Positions 20,043 to 28,976 of a stretch of DNA of 54,052 nucleotides are shown in pieces. This DNA comes from Muribaculaceae bacterium (GTDB lineage Bacteria > Bacteroidota > Bacteroidia > Bacteroidales > Muribaculaceae): contig JAGCRW010000034.1 of the NCBI GenBank assembly GCA_017964485.1, positions 1 to 54,052 on the forward strand, read 5' to 3'. The notes beneath the pieces are model-generated. The model was given only the letters and a program-made list of their open reading frames with translations, did no database searches and was not told the DNA's origin. Each line of letters opens with the position of its first letter. Positions within the stretch are counted from its first letter, which is position 1. The translations under genes were made by a program, and so were the position numbers.

Positions 20043-22493
20043 TTAATTTCCGAGTAGGATGCTGTAGATAGCGGTTATGTCGGCAGCTGTTACTTCGCCG
20101 TCGCCATCAATGTCGCTGGTGGCGATATAAGTCCCGTCATTGTTGAGCAGATAATCGTAGAGCGCTGTCACGTCGGCGGCTGTGACCTCTCCGTCACCAT
20201 TTGCGTCGCCTGGCACCAACTCAACGATATTGAGGAATTGCTGCCACTGGTCGGCATTCATATAAAGTTCACCTATTCCTGCTGGCACGTGGAGCACACA
20301 GTTCTCATAGTCCATGTTCTTGAACACGTTGGTGCCCATCGTCACTGTGGTTGGGTCGGCTATAAAGCTAGTTAGTGATGTCATTGCCGCACAACCATAG
20401 AAGCATCCCTGTCCTAAAGACGTCACCCCGCTGCCGATTATTGCCTCTTCCAGAGCATAGCATTGAGAGAACACGTATTGCTCAAGCGTCACAACCGAGT
20501 TGGGTACAAAGATTTTCTTCAGTCCTAAGATGTGGTTGAATGCCGAGCGCTCAATTACAGTCACCGAACTAGGGATTTTGATGGTCTCTATGCCATGATG
20601 CTCATAGAACGCAAAAGTGCCAATTGTAGTAACGGTTTCAGGAATCACCGTTTCTTTGCAGCCAGCGACAAGTCGATTGGTAGCTTTCTCGATGATTGCG
20701 TTGCAGCCATTGCGTGAGTCATATATTGCATTGCCACTCTTTACAGTCATTGAAGTAAGCGCCTCGCAGCCTGCGAAGGCATAGGTGCCAATAGATGTCA
20801 ATGTGATTGGAATTGTCACCGATTCCAAAGTCTTGCAGTTTCGGAAGGCGTGCTCGGCAATTGCAATGACAGTATAAGTCACATCGTCGTGGGTCACCGT
20901 CATTGGAATATTGGCTGTGACAAGACCAGGATAGTTGTTGGCATAACTGTCTCTATTGTCAGTATAAGTGATTGTGAGTGTCTCATTGTCGCTGTTGATT
21001 TTATAGGCGATACCATCTTCTATGAAATCATAGTCAATAACAATTGGTTTGGAGACAGTCAACTGGCAAGTCGCGGATAGGTTGGAACCATCGGCGGTGG
21101 TAGCAGTGATGGTAGCAGAACCTGCGGCAACGGCTGTCACCTTGCCTTGCTGGTTAACAGTGGCGACAGATGGGTTGCTTGAATTCCAGGTCACGCTGTC
21201 GTTGGTAACATAGCCTGGGTTGACGATGGCAACAAGTGTCTCAGTGTCACCCACCACAAGGCTCAGTTCGCTCTTGTTGAGTGTGATGCTTGTGGCGAGA
21301 GCTTCGGTAGAGTCCACTTCTATAATATTAGCAAACTTGCTCCAAGGCTTGGTGGCTCTGTAGATGTCAGATTTGCCTATGGGAACATACAGCGGGCATT
21401 GTGACATCACGTTTGGAGCAAAAATACTGTCACTTCCATAAACAAGCGCTTGTGGATCCATTATTTTAGAATAAACAGCGTTTAAGTCGGTGCAATAAAA
21501 GAATGCGCTTTTGCTTATTGATGTCACTGAGTTTGGAATCACAAGATTAGTAACCTTTTTTCCACCAGTGCATAAATCGGCAGCGTTAGATAATGGATTA
21601 GCGGTAAAATCACCGTCACGAATAGGGTTATAATAGTCGGTTCCCCAATAATTAATTGGATTACCCTCTTCGTCATAGTCATACGCCTCATAACTAAGAT
21701 AATGCCCAAGATAAGTGGTTTCAAAACTCATTTCACACCAAGTCTTAATATCATCAACATTAACCTGAGTCAAGTTGCTGCAATTGGCGAAAGCTCGCAG
21801 ACCTATATTTTTCAACGAGCTTGTTATGGTTACACTATTTATACCGCACCCATAGAAAGCCCCACCTTTAATTGATGAGACAGAGCTTGGTATGACAAGG
21901 TCGGTAATCTTATTGCCATCTAAGTATAAATCATGAGCAAAATATAAAGGATTAGCAGTGTAATCATATTTATAATCATAACCAAATTTACCAAATGGAC
22001 CCAACATTGATTCCACATAATATAACACCTGAAAATCAATGTCACACCATGCGCTCAAATCATTGATTTTCACCTCGGTCAAGCTTGTACAGCCATAAAA
22101 GGCAAACAGACCAATCTTCTTTATCGTGCTCGGAATTGACACCGATGTCAAATTACTGCAGTTAGAAAAGGCTTCCCAGTCAATTTCAGTGACAGTGTAA
22201 GTTTTTCCATTACGAGTAACAGTTTCGGGTATGATCAGCTCTCCGCTTAGGTATGTATACCCAACATAGCTAGTTATAGGGTAATCATAATAATCCCAAA
22301 AATTCTCTTGAATTGAAACTAAATCTTCATGATGAAGATCCCTGGGCATCACCGATACTGTATTTTCAGATGTCTTTTTGTAACACAGCCCATCGACAAC
22401 AAAGTCGTAGCCGTAGGTGTAGGCGCTAGCCAATTGCGGGAGTGCAAAAAGCGACACCAGCAAACTAATTAGTAATAAACAAATCTTTTTCAT
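20043..22493 (-). CDS. BspA-like LRR surface protein with BIG2 and dockerin domains
   Basis: 816 residues. A signal peptide ends near LASAYT. BspA-type leucine-rich repeats (LRR_5) run from about 90 to 385, with the repeated pattern VIPSSVSSIKGGAFYGC / AFANCSNLTQV. A bacterial Ig-like BIG2 domain occupies about 398-478 (SITLNKSELSLVVGDTE, WNSSNPSVATV, GKVTAVAAGSATITAT). A second LRR_5 block follows to about 740. The dockerin pair (GDANGDGEVTAADVTALY, SDIDGDGEVTAADITAIY) ends the protein. BspA-type repeats mediate binding to host proteins or other bacteria. The start lies about 32 nt behind copy 1 of the shared promoter module. A hairpin terminator follows. Confidence 0.9.
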   Translation of the reverse strand: MKKICLLLISLLVSLFALPQLASAYTYGYDFVVDGLCYKKTSENTVSVMPRDLHHEDLVSIQENFWDYYDYPITSYVGYTYLSGELIIPETVTRNGKTYTVTEIDWEAFSNCSNLTSVSIPSTIKKIGLFAFYGCTSLTEVKINDLSAWCDIDFQVLYYVESMLGPFGKFGYDYKYDYTANPLYFAHDLYLDGNKITDLVIPSSVSSIKGGAFYGCGINSVTITSSLKNIGLRAFANCSNLTQVNVDDIKTWCEMSFETTYLGHYLSYEAYDYDEEGNPINYWGTDYYNPIRDGDFTANPLSNAADLCTGGKKVTNLVIPNSVTSISKSAFFYCTDLNAVYSKIMDPQALVYGSDSIFAPNVMSQCPLYVPIGKSDIYRATKPWSKFANIIEVDSTEALATSITLNKSELSLVVGDTETLVAIVNPGYVTNDSVTWNSSNPSVATVNQQGKVTAVAAGSATITATTADGSNLSATCQLTVSKPIVIDYDFIEDGIAYKINSDNETLTITYTDNRDSYANNYPGLVTANIPMTVTHDDVTYTVIAIAEHAFRNCKTLESVTIPITLTSIGTYAFAGCEALTSMTVKSGNAIYDSRNGCNAIIEKATNRLVAGCKETVIPETVTTIGTFAFYEHHGIETIKIPSSVTVIERSAFNHILGLKKIFVPNSVVTLEQYVFSQCYALEEAIIGSGVTSLGQGCFYGCAAMTSLTSFIADPTTVTMGTNVFKNMDYENCVLHVPAGIGELYMNADQWQQFLNIVELVPGDANGDGEVTAADVTALYDYLLNNDGTYIATSDIDGDGEVTAADITAIYSILLGN

Positions 22494-22524
22494 AGCTATA
22501 GTGTTTTTAGTTATTTCTAGGTTG

Positions 22525-22607
22525 CAAAGTTAAGGAGAGAAAATGATTTTTGCAAGAAAATCGCCTGTATCCTTACTTTTTGCAATTCGCTGATAATCTT
22601 AAAGATA
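22525..22607 (-). promoter_or_regulatory. Shared promoter/operator module, copy 1
   Basis: Minus strand order: TATCTTTA (22600-22607), 24 nt, TAAGGATA (22568-22575, one mismatch to TAAAGATA), 12 nt, TTG (22553-22555), 20 nt, TAACTTTG (22525-22532). It drives the 816-residue BspA-like gene with a leader of about 25 nt. Homology to copy 2 extends upstream through a conserved AAAAGGTACATTTTGA stretch into the 3' end of the preceding dockerin gene. Confidence 0.82.
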
Positions 22608-22703
22608 AAGCCTCTCAAAATGTACCTTTTAGGTTTTTGGCTGTTTTTGCCCTCAAAATTGTGCTAAAAAGCCAGTTTAAGCAGAGTTTTTTATTGGAGC
22701 GGG

Positions 22704-24659
22704 CTATTCTCCAAGCAGAATGTTGTAAACTGCAGTAATATCAGCACTGGTTACTTCGCCGTCTCCATCCACATCGCTGGTTTCATAATATTGGTAGTCG
22801 CTGTCGAGCAGATAGTTATAAAGAGCTGTGATGTCGGCACTTGTGACAACTCCATCGTCGTTCACATCGCCCTCGACAGGATTTTTCAGCCTTTGAGCCT
22901 TGTCATAGGCGCGACCTTTATATACGAGTTCGCCGTTTTCATAAACAGCTGCGAGGCTCGCCATGGGGTTGTTAAATCCTGTGTAGTAATCCCTATAAGG
23001 AATGAGCAAGTCGCCGAAATCACAGTCGACACCAATGCCTTCTATGGTTTTAAATGACCGTTCATCATTTCCATGGTCAATAAAATATCCTTTCCTGACA
23101 CTTTCTCCAACCTCAACATCTATTGATGAGTATGTTGTGTAATTTGTATCGTAATCATAAGGACCTTCATCACCAAATGAAATGTATGCCTCATTAGGCA
23201 GGAACATTGGTTTGCTGAAGTCGTACAATGTTTTTGGCATCATAAACCAATAAGTATAATAGAAATACTCGTCCTCTTCGTATGTATCAATATATACAGT
23301 GACAACCTTGTTCTCTTCTCTTACAAAGGCAACAAAATATGGATTTTGTGCGTTGCCCTGCTTGTCATAATCGGTGCGATAGATTTTATGGTAAACCTTT
23401 CCATCAATCGTTGTAGTGCCATTGAATTCAAGAGTGTAAAGCGAATGTTTAGGAAGAGGATCATCGCTTTCGCCCACATATTCCCAAATAACGCCCTCAC
23501 GCACGAGTGGAACGTAGCTATTCTCAACAATATTTATGAAATCTTTCCATGGGCTTCTGGCTTGATAAAGTGAAACAGTACCTTCGGGAACAAAGAGCAT
23601 ACACAATGACTTATCTACCCCCTCAAACACACGGTTGCCACACGTGACGTTTTGAGGTATTTGAATGTAGGAATGTATTGAGTTCAAACTTAAACAATTC
23701 ATAAAGGCTCTTGCCCCGATGCGCTGTATGTTTGCACCCAAATTGACCGATTCCAGTTTAGAGCAATATAAAAACGCACAACTGTCAATCACGTTAACCG
23801 ATTCTGGAATATTGATTGATTTAAGAGAAGTACAGTACTCAAAGCAGCTCAAGCTGATTGTTTCAATTCCTTCGCTCAATTGCACATCATGCAAAGAACT
23901 GCAAAACTCAAATGCTCTGGCGCCGAAATAAGAAAGTGGGCCATCGATAGTCACAGATGCCAAACTGTCGCAACCAGAAAAAGCTTGGTATCCAATACTA
24001 GTTACTGATGTTGGGATTGTTATGGTTTTGAGCCTGTCACAGTTATAGAATGCTTTATCGGCTATCGACTCAACAGAGGCAGGAATGAAGGAAGTGTTAC
24101 ATCCCATGAGCAACTCATTGGTAGAAGTCTTGATAAGAGCATTACAATTGTCGCGCGAGTCAAAAACCGTGTTCTCTGGGTCTACCCATATCTCCTCCAA
24201 CTGAGGGCACTCTTTAAGATTGTTGGTGCCTATTGTTTTTACTGAACTGGAAATGTTCACTGAGAGCAAATTCGCACAGACAGTAATTGCCGAATTGCCT
24301 ATTGATGTCACTGAGTTTGGGATGGTGATCGATGTCAGACTACTGCAACTATAGAAAGCAGAGGCACCTATCATCTTTACAGTATTAGGAATCTCGATTG
24401 ACTTCAAATTTTCAGCATATCTGAAAGCTTGGTCTGAAATGCGAACAACCTGATAGTTGTGGCCATTATAGCCCACAACGCTGGGAATTACCGCATTTAT
24501 CAAGTTCGCATAGTTGTCGTAGCCACTTGATTCTTTGACAACATTAACTCCTCCACTCGCTGTCTGGTAACAGATGCCATCAACAGTGAAAGTCACTGCA
24601 TTGGCGCTCAGCGCTAACACCATAGCGAACGCAAGAAGTAATAATAATTTTGTTTTCAT
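22704..24659 (-). CDS. BspA-like LRR protein with beta-rich domain and dockerin
   Basis: 651 residues. The signal peptide ends near LSANA (about 21). LRR_5 repeats span about 60-365 (IEIPNTVKMIGASAFYSC, ITIPTSVTSIGYQAFSGC). From about 378 to 580 lies a domain starting VPLVREGVIWEYVG that recurs in the short neighbour gene and in the broken gene at 43346. Dockerin repeats (GDVNDDGVVTSADITALY, SDVDGDGEVTSADITAVY) finish the chain. Its 3' end plus the following intergenic block is nearly the same as the corresponding end of the 611-residue CotH gene, which suggests exchange of gene ends. A TAACTTTG box lies 41 nt upstream of the start. Confidence 0.88.
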   Translation of the reverse strand: MKTKLLLLLAFAMVLALSANAVTFTVDGICYQTASGGVNVVKESSGYDNYANLINAVIPSVVGYNGHNYQVVRISDQAFRYAENLKSIEIPNTVKMIGASAFYSCSSLTSITIPNSVTSIGNSAITVCANLLSVNISSSVKTIGTNNLKECPQLEEIWVDPENTVFDSRDNCNALIKTSTNELLMGCNTSFIPASVESIADKAFYNCDRLKTITIPTSVTSIGYQAFSGCDSLASVTIDGPLSYFGARAFEFCSSLHDVQLSEGIETISLSCFEYCTSLKSINIPESVNVIDSCAFLYCSKLESVNLGANIQRIGARAFMNCLSLNSIHSYIQIPQNVTCGNRVFEGVDKSLCMLFVPEGTVSLYQARSPWKDFINIVENSYVPLVREGVIWEYVGESDDPLPKHSLYTLEFNGTTTIDGKVYHKIYRTDYDKQGNAQNPYFVAFVREENKVVTVYIDTYEEDEYFYYTYWFMMPKTLYDFSKPMFLPNEAYISFGDEGPYDYDTNYTTYSSIDVEVGESVRKGYFIDHGNDERSFKTIEGIGVDCDFGDLLIPYRDYYTGFNNPMASLAAVYENGELVYKGRAYDKAQRLKNPVEGDVNDDGVVTSADITALYNYLLDSDYQYYETSDVDGDGEVTSADITAVYNILLGE

Positions 24660-24699
24660 ATCTTTATTGTTTTTTATGTAGCAAATAATTTGAACGCCA

Positions 24700-24707
24700 C
24701 AAAGTTA
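24700..24707 (-). promoter_or_regulatory. Promoter -7 box TAACTTTG for the 651-residue gene
   Basis: TAACTTTG followed by TGGCGTTCAA, inside the 55-nt gap. The same string occurs upstream of the genes at 43346 (as TAACTTCG) and 45487 (as TAACTTAG), so those look like decayed copies. The -33 element is weak here. Confidence 0.55.
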
Positions 24708-24714
24708 GCAATAA

Positions 24715-25602
24715 CTATTTCAGAACTTTCTCGCTTGAGCGAGTGCCGTCGTTGTATGTGGTGACCTTGATGTTAACACCTTGTTGCAGCTCGGTATTCT
24801 CAACGCCTGCGAGGTTATAGTAGCGAACTCCAGCAACTTGCTTGTCCATATTAACAGTGCTGACGGCATCAGGAGTTTTCAATTGCTGAGCTTCATCGTA
24901 TTTACAACCTTGATACACAAGTTCACCATTTTCATAGACAGCCGATAGCCCTGACATTGGATTTACACTAGTCAGATAAGTTCTATAAGGAACGAGCAAA
25001 TCGCCAAATCCACAGTCAACACCAATGCCTTCAATTGTCTTAAAACTGTGCTCTGGATTTTCAGGAGCTTCACTATCTATTATCTGATACCCCTTCCTAA
25101 GGTTTTGTCCTATTTCCACCTCAAATTCTTGGTATGTGTCTGCCATACTATACTCTGAAATAGGATAGTTGATCTCTGCAAATTGGATGTAATTAGACTC
25201 GTTGGGTAAGAACATTGGGTTGTTGAAGTCGTATAGGACATCGGGTATATTCCACCAAAAGATTTCATTGATATCATAACTCTGATTATCATTAGGAATT
25301 GCAGTAACAACCTTACCTTGTTCTCTCACATAAGCAGCAAGATAAGGTTCTTTGGCATTGCCTTCTTTGTCATAGTAGGTTCGATACATTTTATAATACA
25401 ATTCTCCGTTAACAATAGTCCAACCATTAAACTCAAGAGTGTAAAGTTGCACCTTCTCATAGCCAGGCTCTGGCCAAGCATGGTAGTAGCCTACATATTC
25501 CCAAACAACCCCTTCACGAACGAGGGGCACGTACTCATTCTCAACTGCGCTGGCGCTGGTTATCATCAGCAGCCCCAGCAATAATAATATAATCTTTTTC
25601 AT
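24715..25602 (-). CDS. Secreted paralogue of the VPLVREGV domain, with C-terminal tail motif
   Basis: 295 residues. Signal peptide MKKIILLLLGLLMITSASA, then a single domain (about 25-235) that is clearly paralogous to the middle part of the 651-residue neighbour and the N-terminal part of the broken gene at 43346: EYVPLVREGVVWEYVGY, LYTLEFNGWTIVNGELYYKMYRT, KTIEGIGVDCGFGDLLVPYRTY, SAVYENGELVYQGCKYDEAQQLK. I do not recognise the fold; it is beta-rich. Instead of a dockerin it ends in a tail with RYYNLAGVENTELQQGVNI and NDGTRSSEKVLK, a C-terminal motif common on Prevotella-type secreted proteins. Expressed behind the 290-nt leader RNA, and possibly also from promoter module copy 2 further upstream. 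Confidence 0.83.
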   Translation of the reverse strand: MKKIILLLLGLLMITSASAVENEYVPLVREGVVWEYVGYYHAWPEPGYEKVQLYTLEFNGWTIVNGELYYKMYRTYYDKEGNAKEPYLAAYVREQGKVVTAIPNDNQSYDINEIFWWNIPDVLYDFNNPMFLPNESNYIQFAEINYPISEYSMADTYQEFEVEIGQNLRKGYQIIDSEAPENPEHSFKTIEGIGVDCGFGDLLVPYRTYLTSVNPMSGLSAVYENGELVYQGCKYDEAQQLKTPDAVSTVNMDKQVAGVRYYNLAGVENTELQQGVNIKVTTYNDGTRSSEKVLK

Positions 25603-25892
25603 ATCTTTATTGTTTTGAAGTTAATAATTTACTTGATATGTAAAAGAAAACGTGAGGTCGTTACCTGCTTTCAACTTAGAGGCATCGCCAAACGCCCAAC
25701 ATAGTAAAAACAGTCTACCTCACGCTTTGCCATTATATCATTCACCTGATTGGTGGATATGGCAAACGAAGGCGTTTTTGACTGTTTCATCCGACTATGT
25801 TTAAAAAAATGGCGAATTTCTAAGTTTGGTGAAACACAAACGCATTCTTTATGTCAAAAAAGCACTGTGTATAGCCTCTGCTATGTGCTTCA
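25603..25892 (-). ncRNA. Structured 5' leader RNA, copy A
   Basis: Minus-strand leader from the predicted start near 25892 to the ATG at 25602. No ORF of note is inside. Helices seen by eye (plus coordinates): P1 outer 25860-25865/25885-25890 and inner 25871-25875/25880-25884 with loop AGAG in the RNA; b 25819-25826/25673-25680; c 25794-25801/25698-25705; d 25780-25786/25709-25715; f 25756-25763/25729-25739. Two further pairings cross these: AACGCC with GGGCGTT, and CGTGAGGT with ACCTCACG. Copy B has the same helices with different bases. Type and ligand unknown. Confidence 0.8.
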
Positions 25893-25898
25893 ATGTTG

Positions 25899-25929
25899 CA
25901 AATTTAGATTGTTTTTTATTTAAAAGCAA
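25899..25929 (-). promoter_or_regulatory. Promoter of leader RNA copy A
   Basis: TTG at 25927-25929, a 20-nt spacer and TAAATTTG at 25899-25906 on the minus strand. Transcription would start just before the first hairpin. The same TAAATTTGCAAC string precedes copy B. Confidence 0.82.
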
Positions 25930-26016
25930 GAAAAACATAAAAATATTATTTTTAATTTAGCTCAATAGAATTGTATCAATTCTGTTAGAAATAATCTGAA
26001 TTGAACTTTCTGGTTG

Positions 26017-26099
26017 CAAAGTTACAATCAACAAAACTAATTTGCAAGAAAATTGCCCGTATCTTTACTTTTTGTAACTAACTGGTAATCATAAAGATA
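26017..26099 (-). promoter_or_regulatory. Shared promoter/operator module, copy 2
   Basis: TATCTTTA (26092-26099), 24 nt, TAAAGATA (26060-26067), 12 nt, TTG (26045-26047), 20 nt, TAACTTTG (26017-26024), all on the minus strand. It lies about 110 nt upstream of the leader RNA promoter, so the 295-residue gene may have two start sites. Gap 25603-26196 otherwise contains only the leader RNA and homology to copy 1 upstream of this module. Confidence 0.82.
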
Positions 26100-26196
26100 T
26101 AGCAGTTCAAAATGTACCTTTTAGGTTTTTGGTTGTTTTTGTCTTCAAAAGTTGTGCTAAATAGCCAGTTTAAGCATAGTTTCTCTTTGGAGCGGG

Positions 26197-28032
26197 TTAT
26201 TCTCCGAGCAGTATGTTGTAGACGATGGTTATGTCGGCTGCGGTGATAATGCCGTCGCCGTCTTGGTCTTCATTGACGATATCATTAGAGTCGCCATTGA
26301 GCAGGTAGTTGTAGAGGCAAGTCACGTCGGAACTGGTCACTACTCCGTCACCGTCCACATCGCCTTCCTTTATAATATTTGCAATTGTTGGCGTGCTGTC
26401 GTCACTTGTGACGGGTATATAGCAACAATGAGGTTCAATGGGAGTGTCGGTGGGTGCTAGAACAAACTTATTGTCGAAAAGAACATAACCGTCATTTACC
26501 ACTTGAGGCTCAACGTTTCCCACCAGGATACTGCTTACAGTCGTTGTTTCACCTTCGTAGGGAGTGGCGGCAATTTCGTCAAAATTGTTAGTTCCCTGCA
26601 GTAGCACTCCCACATTGGCTGGAATGTATTGCACAGGAGAGACCACTACACCATTATCATTGAATTTAATTGCAACATAAGCATTGACTCCTTGAGGTAA
26701 AGCGAGATCGGTGTCGCTGTAGTATGTCACCCAATTGATGGTGTCGGCAGGAATATCCCATTGTGATGCCAAGAAATCTCGTTTGTTGGTTAACATTCTC
26801 ATGTATTTGTTTCGGTAATACCAAAGCTGTGTAGCCGATTTGTCGCCCCATCGCAGATAATCGGCCGCCAGAGCCGCCTCAGTCAATTCACCATAAGCAT
26901 CTACTTCGGCCTGCATGGTTGGGTACACCTCGTCGCGATATTTCTTCCACCATTTCTTTATGGCAATCTGGAAGCGGGGGAACTTGGCAATTTCTTCAAT
27001 CCAATGATTGTAAGCAAAATCAGGCTCATCTTTATAGATGAAATTAGTTGTATTAACATCTTGGTTCCTGTTTCCCAGGGTAGAACCAGCGTCCCATATT
27101 GGCCCCCAAATCAACTTGGTGTTCTCTCCTCGGTCTTTATAGAACCATGAACTTCCACTAAAAGCCTCCAGATGGTCAAGCGCTTCTTCTAACATATAAA
27201 ATCTTGCCAATGCGTCAATGTCGATATATTCTTCCCATTCTCTACTAGCCTTGTCGTCGGTATTGACCGAAACATTGACATTGTTGATAAATTCAGTCAA
27301 ATAACTTAACTGAGCCTCTGAGAGCTCTTCAGGGCTGTGATAAGTCACTTTCATGTACTTATCGGGCTTTTTTGGGTCAATAAACCTTATTTGGTTCTCT
27401 TCAATGTAATTGTCAATCTCAAGAAGCCAGCCACCAGTGATTAGAGTGGAGTCGGTTTCTCCATCTTCTTGCTCTGAGATATTAACACGTTTTTTGTCAA
27501 TTCTTATTTGCTCGGTGAGGAAGTACATGCCAATGTAGTCGCCATTGAGAACCACCTCACATGGCACACACCGTGTGGTATAGGGCATCTCCATTTTCTC
27601 GCTAATCTTAAAAGCAAGATAATTCCTGCCATGTGCCAGCCAATCACTATAGGCGGCCAATAAGATCCAATGCTTGCTTTTGGGCATTCCAAGCAGGCTG
27701 GCTTTAGAGTCGAGTTTTAATCTATAAGGTTTTTTTGGATATCTCCATGTGGCATTACCACGCCCCTTTATCAACAGTGGAAGGGGCTCTTCGACTGTTC
27801 CAACCGACTCATAATCACCACATCCATTGGCATCAAGATAGTAACTGCCCTCAATGTAGTTTTCTTTATCCACAATAGGCGCTTCATCTACTGTGTTGAT
27901 ATACAACACTGGTAGCGTATTGGAAAGGTACTCAGCAGGATCATGCTTGGCTGTATCGACTTCTTCGTCAGCATACATCAGATTCCAAGAACATAATAAC
28001 AAACAAGGGAAAAGGATTCTAAGAAAATTCAT
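26197..28032 (-). CDS. CotH-kinase family protein with dockerin, distinct subfamily
   Basis: 611 residues. The signal peptide ends near LMYADE. The CotH core is more canonical in its N-terminal landmarks than in the pair at 16245: LLIKGRGNATWRYPKKPYRLKLD, LLGMPKSKHWILLAAYSDW, NGDYIGMYFLTEQIRIDKKRVNI (about 160-182) and IWGPIWDAGSTLGN (about 309-322). In that last motif only the first Asp of WDxD is kept, so kinase activity is doubtful. A beta-rich region (about 420-550) precedes the dockerin pair (GDVDGDGVVTSSDVTCLY, EDQDGDGIITAADITIVY). The dockerin DNA is close to that of the broken gene at 43346. Expressed behind leader RNA copy B. Confidence 0.88.
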   Translation of the reverse strand: MNFLRILFPCLLLCSWNLMYADEEVDTAKHDPAEYLSNTLPVLYINTVDEAPIVDKENYIEGSYYLDANGCGDYESVGTVEEPLPLLIKGRGNATWRYPKKPYRLKLDSKASLLGMPKSKHWILLAAYSDWLAHGRNYLAFKISEKMEMPYTTRCVPCEVVLNGDYIGMYFLTEQIRIDKKRVNISEQEDGETDSTLITGGWLLEIDNYIEENQIRFIDPKKPDKYMKVTYHSPEELSEAQLSYLTEFINNVNVSVNTDDKASREWEEYIDIDALARFYMLEEALDHLEAFSGSSWFYKDRGENTKLIWGPIWDAGSTLGNRNQDVNTTNFIYKDEPDFAYNHWIEEIAKFPRFQIAIKKWWKKYRDEVYPTMQAEVDAYGELTEAALAADYLRWGDKSATQLWYYRNKYMRMLTNKRDFLASQWDIPADTINWVTYYSDTDLALPQGVNAYVAIKFNDNGVVVSPVQYIPANVGVLLQGTNNFDEIAATPYEGETTTVSSILVGNVEPQVVNDGYVLFDNKFVLAPTDTPIEPHCCYIPVTSDDSTPTIANIIKEGDVDGDGVVTSSDVTCLYNYLLNGDSNDIVNEDQDGDGIITAADITIVYNILLGE

Positions 28033-28335
28033 GATTATACTATTTAAGTGAAGATTAATGTTTTTCAGTAAATGGTATACAAAGAAAGCGTGGAAACTGG
28101 TCTTGTTTACTTATAGGAGGCATCGCCAAACGCCCAACTCGAAATAAACAGTCCACCCCACGCTGAGCCTATATATCTAACCTCATTCACGAGGTGGATA
28201 TAGGCAAGCGAAGGCGTTCTTCGACTGCTTTTCCTTCGAGTTTAAAATTTTGGCGAATTTCCTATAAAGGATAAGCAAGAAAACGCATTCTTATGTCATC
28301 AAACACTTAATCGCAACCTCTGTTGCGTGTTTGAA
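28033..28335 (-). ncRNA. Structured 5' leader RNA, copy B
   Basis: Minus-strand leader of the 611-residue CotH gene. Helices matching copy A (plus coordinates): P1 outer 28299-28306/28327-28334, inner 28313-28317/28322-28326 with loop AGAG; b 28260-28267/28111-28118; c 28235-28242/28136-28143; d 28223-28230/28147-28153; f 28197-28205/28167-28177. Bases differ from copy A in helices P1, b, c and f yet pairing is kept. Unpaired blocks such as AAATTCGCCA and GGGCGTTTGGCGATGCC are nearly unchanged. Confidence 0.8.
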
Positions 28336-28341
28336 TTGTTG

Positions 28342-28374
28342 CAAATTTACAACAATTTTTTTATATCAAGCAAA
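28342..28374 (-). promoter_or_regulatory. Promoter of leader RNA copy B
   Basis: TTTG at 28371-28374, a 21-nt spacer and TAAATTTG at 28342-28349 on the minus strand, immediately before the first hairpin of the leader. In the 1005-nt gap 28033-29037, the stretch 28375-28738 is AT-rich and I see nothing in it beyond scattered ATGGGTAA-type words. Confidence 0.8.
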
Positions 28375-28769: not shown

Positions 28770-28836
28770 CACCGCAATTCCGTGCGGAGGGGGCTCTGAA
28801 GCTTCCTCTATTTTGTTATAAAATGGGAAATTTTTT

Positions 28837-28976
28837 AATGCTCAATGCATAATGCTCAATGCACAATTCATAATGCACAATGCACAATTCATAATGCTTA
28901 ATGCTCAATGCTCAATGAATAATGCTCAATGCTCAATGCACCATGCATAATTGGGATTCATAATGCATAATGAACA
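28837..28976. repeat. AATGCTC/AATGCAC micro-repeat tract in the rimP leader
   Basis: About 140 bp built from short words AATGCTC, AATGCAC, AATTCAT and AATGCAT in irregular order. It lies between the operon promoter and rimP, so it should be transcribed. It has the same word family as 19703-19790. Confidence 0.78.

Follow-up and report, generated by a model that had tools for sequence, protein, structure and literature searches.

The window analysed here is a 54,052-nt contig (JAGCRW010000034.1) of a Muribaculaceae bacterium. On its minus strand, at 20043-28032, four exported-type genes are clustered, encoding an LRR_5, Big_2 and dockerin protein, an LRR_5 and dockerin protein, a 295-aa protein and a CotH and dockerin protein; type I dockerins occur in three of them. 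Two related leaders, A and B, lie on the same strand. Leader A is found 5' of the ORF at 24715-25602, which encodes the 295-aa protein (no Pfam match; N-terminus judged signal-like by eye), and leader B 5' of the ORF at 26197-28032, whose 611-aa product combines CotH with a type I dockerin and again has a signal-like N-terminus by eye. A covariance model of the leader core (R1, built from 26 sequences) finds leaders in this cluster before the 295-aa and CotH genes only. Between leader B and a rimP-like gene, at 28832-28975, degenerate short repeats of the type ATAATGC(T/A)CAATGC are visible by eye.

Each leader opens with promoter-like elements placed by their coordinates, and in A also by family-wide enrichment of TAnnTTTG: the -33/-7 elements of A (TTGC ... 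TAAATTTG) span 25899-25929 and those of B 28342-28373. A first-pass annotation had put both leaders behind TAAATTTG with a TTG upstream, and the motif was located at 25899-25906 in A and 28342-28349 in B, TTG lying further upstream in each. The following 5' hairpin, P1 (25860-25890 in A, with an AGAG loop; 28301-28332 in B), was delineated by folding and, for A, by the A/B comparison. Its stem reads ATAGC/GCTAT in A and GCAAC/GTTGC in B with pairing kept, a covariation seen between A and B only. Next come S1, the first switch strand, which pairs with X5 (25828-25837 in A, 28269-28279 in B, from own-versus-swapped pairing in the family); the 5' strand of helix Pa (25819-25826 and 28260-28267); the 5' strand of P2, UCGCCA in A, which pairs with the loop of hairpin Ph (25810-25815 and 28251-28256); and the 5' strand of helix Pb (25794-25801 and 28235-28242). 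The second switch strand, X5, pairs with M or S1 (25780-25793 and 28223-28234) and is separated from M by an extra hairpin, Pd (25724-25767 and 28161-28210, from folding), the mark of the long type to which both A and B belong. The third strand, M, pairs with X5 or X3 (25706-25725 and 28144-28163). It is followed by the Pb 3' strand (25698-25705 and 28136-28143), hairpin Ph, GGGC-GUU-UGGCGA-U-GCC in A (25681-25697 and 28119-28135, from family comparison), the Pa 3' strand (25673-25680 and 28111-28118), the fourth strand X3, which pairs with M (25651-25672 and 28088-28110), and a terminator-like U-run after M:X3 (25642-25650 and 28081-28087, from family-wide enrichment). Pa, P2 and Pb were assigned by family covariation, complemented in A by RNAalifold, by duplex comparison for Pa and by a chimera test for Pb, and X5, M and X3 by duplex comparison across the family. 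Pairing is kept between A and B in Pa (AACTTAGA/TCTAAGTT versus TTATAGGA/TCCTATAA) and in Pb (AACATAGT/ACTATGTT versus AACTCGAA/TTCGAGTT), and all stem pairs that the first-pass annotation had listed as compensated are present in the sequence. The fold z-scores are -5.0 for A and -5.7 for B, none of 100 shuffles of either being equally stable. This confirms that A and B are genuine 5' leaders, with strong structure and compensatory base changes.

Relatives of the two leaders were gathered by a conserved 17-mer, by BLAST and by the family-seeded model. The exact 17-mer GGGCGTTTGGCGATGCC occurs at 118 or more loci of the genome collection, and an nhmmer profile seeded with A and B matches 90 of the 118 listed at E < 1e-5; the other 28 comprise 26 loci from other phyla and two on Prolixibacteraceae and Lentisphaerae contigs, with weak nhmmer matches (E 0.0004-0.008) in four of the 28. 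A DNA search with copy B gave matches in 32 of 101 genomes (its own included), at up to six places each. The covariance-model search of Bacteroidales that had been proposed as a check finds R1 in 73 of 295 genomes and 52 of 184 genera of the order, in seven of 296 genomes of a phylum-wide sample (the own genome included in each case) and in none of 17 genomes of other phyla. All 11 Kiritimatiellae and Lentisphaerae genomes and all three Bacteroidota genomes chosen as carriers of the 17-mer match as well; since these 14 were preselected, they illustrate copy number and not frequency. Parabacteroides sp. An277 has 17 R1 matches, most of which show the same strand arrangement on visual inspection, and Xylanibacter rodentium has three. 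In the own genome, A and B are joined by a third copy, of the compact type, on a different contig and by a partial one at a contig edge. Among 20 contigs of a viral collection that carry the 17-mer, R1 matches 13 at E < 1e-8 and four at E 0.39-0.84, with no match up to E 1 in three; DNA searches of named phage records (two query copies) and plasmid records (one), by a method of low sensitivity, returned no match. The 220 model matches reduce to 212 distinct cores and, after removal of two with short flanks and of near-duplicates, to 185, among which copy A is represented through near-identical relatives. Compact copies have cores below 135 nt (94 of the 185, median 118) and long copies cores above 135 nt with the extra hairpin Pd (91, median 161). 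Judged by sequence similarity, A and B are members of a large family of putative leader RNAs that carries no name and extends to prophage contigs.

The core of these RNAs consists of helix Pa, a loop pseudoknot and helix Pb, the pseudoknot arising because the 3' strand of P2 sits in the loop of Ph. In an alignment of 90 related copies (A7; 89 outside the seed and one identical to a seed sequence), 94.5% of cells pair in the model structure versus 63.1% after shuffling, a count that is biased toward the structure because a model containing it served both to find the copies and to align them. Double changes affect 35 of the 38 modelled pairs, which together with the z-scores places the structure beyond chance, and the covariation score is 0.598, compared with 0.143 for shuffled and 0.057-0.074 for slid alignments. 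RNAalifold, to which no structure was supplied, recovered Pa, P2 and Pb from the same alignment, double changes affecting all of the 24 pairs, and within the model structure the covariation extends to the X5:M strands. Pa shows all Watson-Crick types at most positions. P2 is found in 182 of the 185 copies in 37 distinct strings, length variants included, mostly UCGCCA/UGGCGA, but also ACCGCCA/UGGCGGU, ACGACCA/UGGUCGU and UCGGCA/UGCCGA; the Ph stem is mostly GGC/GCC or GGU/ACC. As Pb had been picked by stem maximisation, the same search was repeated on 5'/3' chimeras, and a score of at least 7 was reached by 88% of own pairs and 9% of chimeras. Of 154 parser-readable copies, 133 have AAA or AAT as the linker between Pa and P2, and an AA(A/T)TTT-like sequence lies 3' of P2. 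When 115 extended sequences were aligned with plain MAFFT, covariation was clean for Pa only and the remainder was mostly noise; the strands were therefore compared by duplex energy.

For this comparison, the energy of each copy's own duplex was set against duplexes with partners swapped in from distant copies, in 179 dereplicated copies (those of the 185 with at least six Pb pairs and a long enough inner region; six were removed). Own duplexes are more stable by 7.80 kcal/mol for Pa, 7.73 for Pb (the maximised stem) and 1.82 for P2, whose own pairing wins in only 67% of comparisons because P2 is mostly invariant. The corresponding differences are -7.14 kcal/mol for M:X3, -5.68 for X5:M and -2.93 for S1:X5, and those of six non-partner controls are close to zero (S1:X3 -0.15, S1:M -0.10, X5:X3 +0.18, Pa5:X3 +0.05, S1:Pa3 +0.12, Pb5:X3 -0.03). 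Pa, P2, Pb, X5:M, M:X3 and S1:X5 are thus partner-specific, while the six controls are without an overall difference. Specificity is weaker in the long subgroup, where own pairs win in 71% of comparisons for X5:M, 75% for M:X3 and 72% for S1:X5, and the control S1:X3 differs slightly, by -0.51 kcal/mol. Two further pairings were rejected: a fully nested rod with S1:X3 pairing finds no overall duplex support beyond that slight -0.5 kcal/mol of the long copies, and the AACGCC/GGGCGTT pseudoknot that had been proposed from A and B is complementary, but its own pairs do no better than swapped ones. The other proposed pseudoknot, CGTGAGG with CCTCACG, is a real pairing; by the duplex test on the 179 copies it forms part of M:X3 and hence of the switch.

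In 99% of copies, X5:M and M:X3 overlap on more than half of the M bases, the mean overlap being 86%, and the two helices therefore compete. All four bases occur among the M bases paired in both helices. At M position -7, counted from the M end, the X5-M-X3 triplets are GCG in 43 copies, AUA in 43, CGC in 14 and UAU in 11 (n=135), a count which presupposes that both partners fit and illustrates the linked change, the test itself being the duplex comparison. At least five T in the 8 nt after M:X3 were found in 80% of copies (91% of compact and 68% of long) versus 8% of controls, and 122 of the 179 copies jointly pass six self-chosen feature thresholds. The mean computed energies are -63.6 kcal/mol for the nested state and -60.4 kcal/mol for the terminator-like state, the nested state being the lower in 69% of copies and the terminator-like state in 31%. 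All four switch strands lie directly next to Pa and Pb, so that a four-way junction would result if S1:X5 and M:X3 formed alongside these two helices. In computation, then, the leader offers mutually exclusive terminator and antiterminator pairings. A riboswitch-like nature had been suggested from the two copies, and the modelled architecture agrees with it: two exclusive folds with own-partner specificity, one of them followed by a U-run. Downstream of the U-run, some long-type copies have a hairpin whose loop may be a partner of X3, its own pairing being better in 65% of comparisons, a weak preference. In L066 and L011, for example, this hairpin lies just before the start codon and shows a GGGAC or GGAGAC loop facing GUCC or GUCUCC in X3.

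By the ORF rule of this analysis, 161 of the 185 copies are followed by an ORF on the same strand, 14 by one on the opposite strand and ten by none or by too little sequence; the ORF starts at a median of 88 nt past the core, i.e. after Pa (5-95% range 38-316 nt), and in some copies, such as L034, M:X3 lies near the start codon. TAnnTTTG occurs within 110 nt upstream in 130 of 182 copies (52 of 93 compact, 78 of 89 long), compared with 6% and 7% in controls. The leaders thus occupy, as far as sequence can tell, the 5' position between promoter and coding sequence that is typical of riboswitches and attenuators. Helix cells contain 194 G.U pairs versus 38 A.C mismatches, so that the constraint lies on the sense RNA strand. 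Orientation, promoter element and G.U bias alike favour the cis-acting RNA that the first-pass annotation had envisaged. Not noticed in that annotation were two of the helices (S1:X5 and X5:M), the pseudoknot of P2 with Ph, the U-run and the occurrence of the family beyond the window.

Of 85 downstream proteins listed, 76 were scanned together and contain 70 Pfam families in total, including BspA-type LRRs (17 proteins), dockerins (5), InlB-type repeats (3) and T9SS sorting tails (3). Signal-like N-termini, called by a crude, self-made rule, were found in 108 of 161 targets versus 37% of 1124 background ORFs, spurious ones included. PHROGs, Pfam and PADLOC were applied to selected proteins, among which the targets without a signal-like N-terminus include AbiH, Mrr-type and HSDR_N nucleases, PLD and helicase-nuclease proteins, a PD-T4-6-like kinase, a DUF2971 protein, a type II methyltransferase and small HTH-like proteins. 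Behind the RNA of six copies (L063, L226, L227, L237, L048 and L064), similar small I-H-(I/V)-G proteins start at close distance, of 68-90 aa in the five with a called length and weakly matching HTH_3 in one. By sequence, the targets appear to be mostly exported proteins, with anti-phage genes and prophage cargo besides. The control of surface-protein genes that had been assumed fits the window and most targets, and is too narrow for the family. The surroundings of ten viral contigs were inspected, and eight of nine neighbour proteins scanned from five of them match phage families: a tape measure protein (L257), a major head and a head morphogenesis protein (L256), a portal (L253) and, in L250 and L258, families mostly of unknown function.

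Several loci suggest that the leader travels with its promoter. L250 and L264 are 94% identical until 27 nt past the core and then continue into different cargo. A search with the unit of copy A (E ≤ 1e-40) found it in nine of 101 genomes of the genus at ten places, one partial and excluded; the nine that remain, each from a different genome, share 82-98% identity over approximately 300-375 bp, a stretch that begins at the promoter and ends shortly ahead of the start codon. The genes behind them comprise six different called ones, of which one is common to L273, L274 and L276, and a seventh in L271, which has a different start and is cut by the contig end. The outer flanks are mostly unrelated, the upstream side being a mosaic. 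In L144 (2032-3317), four promoter-leader units of 82-90% identity stand in tandem with no long gene between them; each has a promoter-like element and a U-run, and in some of them the match between the Pa strands is poor, which gives the impression of recombination. Promoter and leader together look like a portable unit placed ahead of different cargo genes.

For Bacteroidota, a phylum dominant in the gut, few leader RNAs with a sensory role have to our knowledge been described. Flavo-1, one candidate from Bacteroidetes, is included in Rfam. The leaders had not been recognised as a named class, with which both Rfam 15 and the literature searched agree. The Rfam 15 scan, also suggested as a check, gave no match over the window, and at E ≤ 5 nothing within 3 kb of the leaders overlapped them, the sole weak match being mir-1175 at 27438-27473, inside a gene; related loci returned tRNA only (11 loci at gathering level and five short loci at E ≤ 2). 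In transcription-attenuating riboswitches and four-strand attenuators, a 5' leader pairs its strands exclusively as 2:3 or 3:4, and the terminator helix is followed by a U-run. The leader described here resembles them in its conserved core, the exclusive pairing of M and the terminator-like helix with a U-run before the gene. It differs from them in that its 1:2 and 3:4 strands both cross core helices, possibly giving a four-way junction, in matching no known aptamer, in having as a rule no leader peptide and in showing no metabolic regulon. In a leader-peptide attenuator a short ORF overlaps strand 1; an ORF of at least eight codons with an ATG start that extends into the core was seen in no more than 35 of the 179, and this type was rejected. 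T-box leaders have a conserved UGGN bulge that pairs with the NCCA of tRNA. Here the UGGN lies in a cis-paired loop and is broken by the variants UGCCGA, UGUCCAGA and UACCAGU; since it is not universal, and with no Rfam match, a T-box was rejected. Membership of the type III toxin-antitoxin or abiF RNAs does not agree with 70 Pfam families in 76 proteins, such RNAs being tied to one protein family, nor does membership of the integron attC sites, whose structure is under constraint at the DNA level, agree with the G.U count of 194 against 38 A.C.

Available passages of PMC12373285 describe the abiF motif RNA (RF03085, RCd22) of C. difficile, in which premature termination keeps the gene low. 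The present leaders resemble abiF and type III toxin-antitoxin RNAs, as far as those passages describe them, in the order of promoter, structured RNA, terminator and gene and in their partial occurrence in prophages, but are without an Rfam match and not tied to one protein family. A table in the available part of PMC2864571 lists Bacteroid-trp, Bacteroidales-1, Bacteroides-1 and Bacteroides-2 as structured-RNA candidates from Bacteroidetes. Rfam numbers are given there for the first three, which do not match the leaders, while Bacteroides-2 appears in that passage without a number and hence falls outside the Rfam comparison. Flavo-1 is mentioned as a Bacteroidetes candidate in a passage of PMC9723704. 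The human-microbiome screen of Fremin and Bhatt (PMC8040213) includes, in the portion available, Bacteroidetes candidates, one of them near phage domains. In the literature searched the family is not described, but overlap with an unnamed candidate in the supplementary tables of that screen is possible. PMC11109978 and PMC8632094 contain no word starting with Bacteroid, and the available portions of PMC9723704, PMC2864571, PMC7366714 and PMC12373285 do not describe the family.

Helices, shared M, partner specificity, U-run, promoter spacing and gene orientation have been established by computation, and with a probability of roughly 0.7 we take A and B to represent a class, as yet without a name, of leader RNAs of attenuator type that act in cis under the control of a signal. 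Transcription would start at the TTG/TAnnTTTG promoter just upstream, and the nascent RNA would form the core of Pa, P2 (its 5' strand paired to the Ph loop) and Pb. With X5:M formed, everything would be nested except the P2/Ph contact, X3 would stay free and the polymerase could read into the gene; with M:X3 formed together with S1:X5, the long helix and U-run would act as an intrinsic terminator ahead of the gene. The core is presumably folded in this second state, too. A signal that binds the core, or acts on its folding, would pick the state; the targets share no common pathway and hence suggest no ligand. Several features speak against an attenuator: the U-run frequency (68%) and the switch specificity are lower in the long type, the window's own; the nested state is computed to be lower in 69% of copies; and the possible pairing of X3 with the downstream hairpin in some long copies would be superfluous for a simple terminator.

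It is unlikely that the RNA instead acts separately, as a small RNA in trans or on the encoded protein, with termination ahead of the gene and expression by leak-through, as type III toxin-antitoxin loci and the abiF RNA of C. difficile would suggest as models. The order of promoter, structured RNA, terminator-like element and gene, the anti-phage genes among the targets and the four tandem units of L144 would suit such an RNA, but no one protein partner fits targets that are unrelated and mostly exported, and an RNA that works purely in trans has no need of X5 as a competitor for M, the terminator strand. The competing pairing of M speaks equally against a static leader, in which structure at the start codon sets translation or mRNA stability and neither termination nor sensing takes place, as do the U-run directly after M:X3 in 80% of copies and the variable distance from core end to start codon (38-316 nt); M:X3 close to the start codon, as in L034, and the possible extra hairpin-X3 pairing of long types agree with a static leader, which we nevertheless hold to be decidedly unlikely. 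A function as DNA, with the element folding into a site of recombination or insertion that disseminates cargo genes in the manner of integron attC, would account for near-identical leaders with different cargo, for cargo types (exported, defence) like those of mobile cassettes and for tandem units. We consider this highly improbable, given that G.U is kept and A.C avoided, that most copies have a promoter element and a U-run, that the core is pseudoknotted and that the upstream flanks of A-type copies are mosaic, unlike a clean insertion.

The attenuator-type reading can be extended, tentatively and with more doubt than belief, to a new sensor class: a portable promoter-attenuator in gut Bacteroidota, PVC bacteria and prophages that would gate exported, surface and anti-phage cargo. 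On the same uncertain footing, it might operate by a four-strand exchange of S1:X5 plus M:X3 against X5:M around the pseudoknotted core and respond to a global signal; conceivably this would be a second messenger or a phage or envelope cue, and not a metabolite of one pathway. The leader RNA is common in Bacteroidales, at about a quarter of the genomes sampled and with up to 17 matches per genome, and the family sits on surface-protein, phage-defence and prophage cargo genes. Sequenced strains such as Parabacteroides sp. An277 and Xylanibacter rodentium carry it, which makes direct testing feasible, and in Bacteroidota genetics it can serve as a portable regulatory part. If the leaders are signal-responsive, one switch would serve a whole class of accessory genes.
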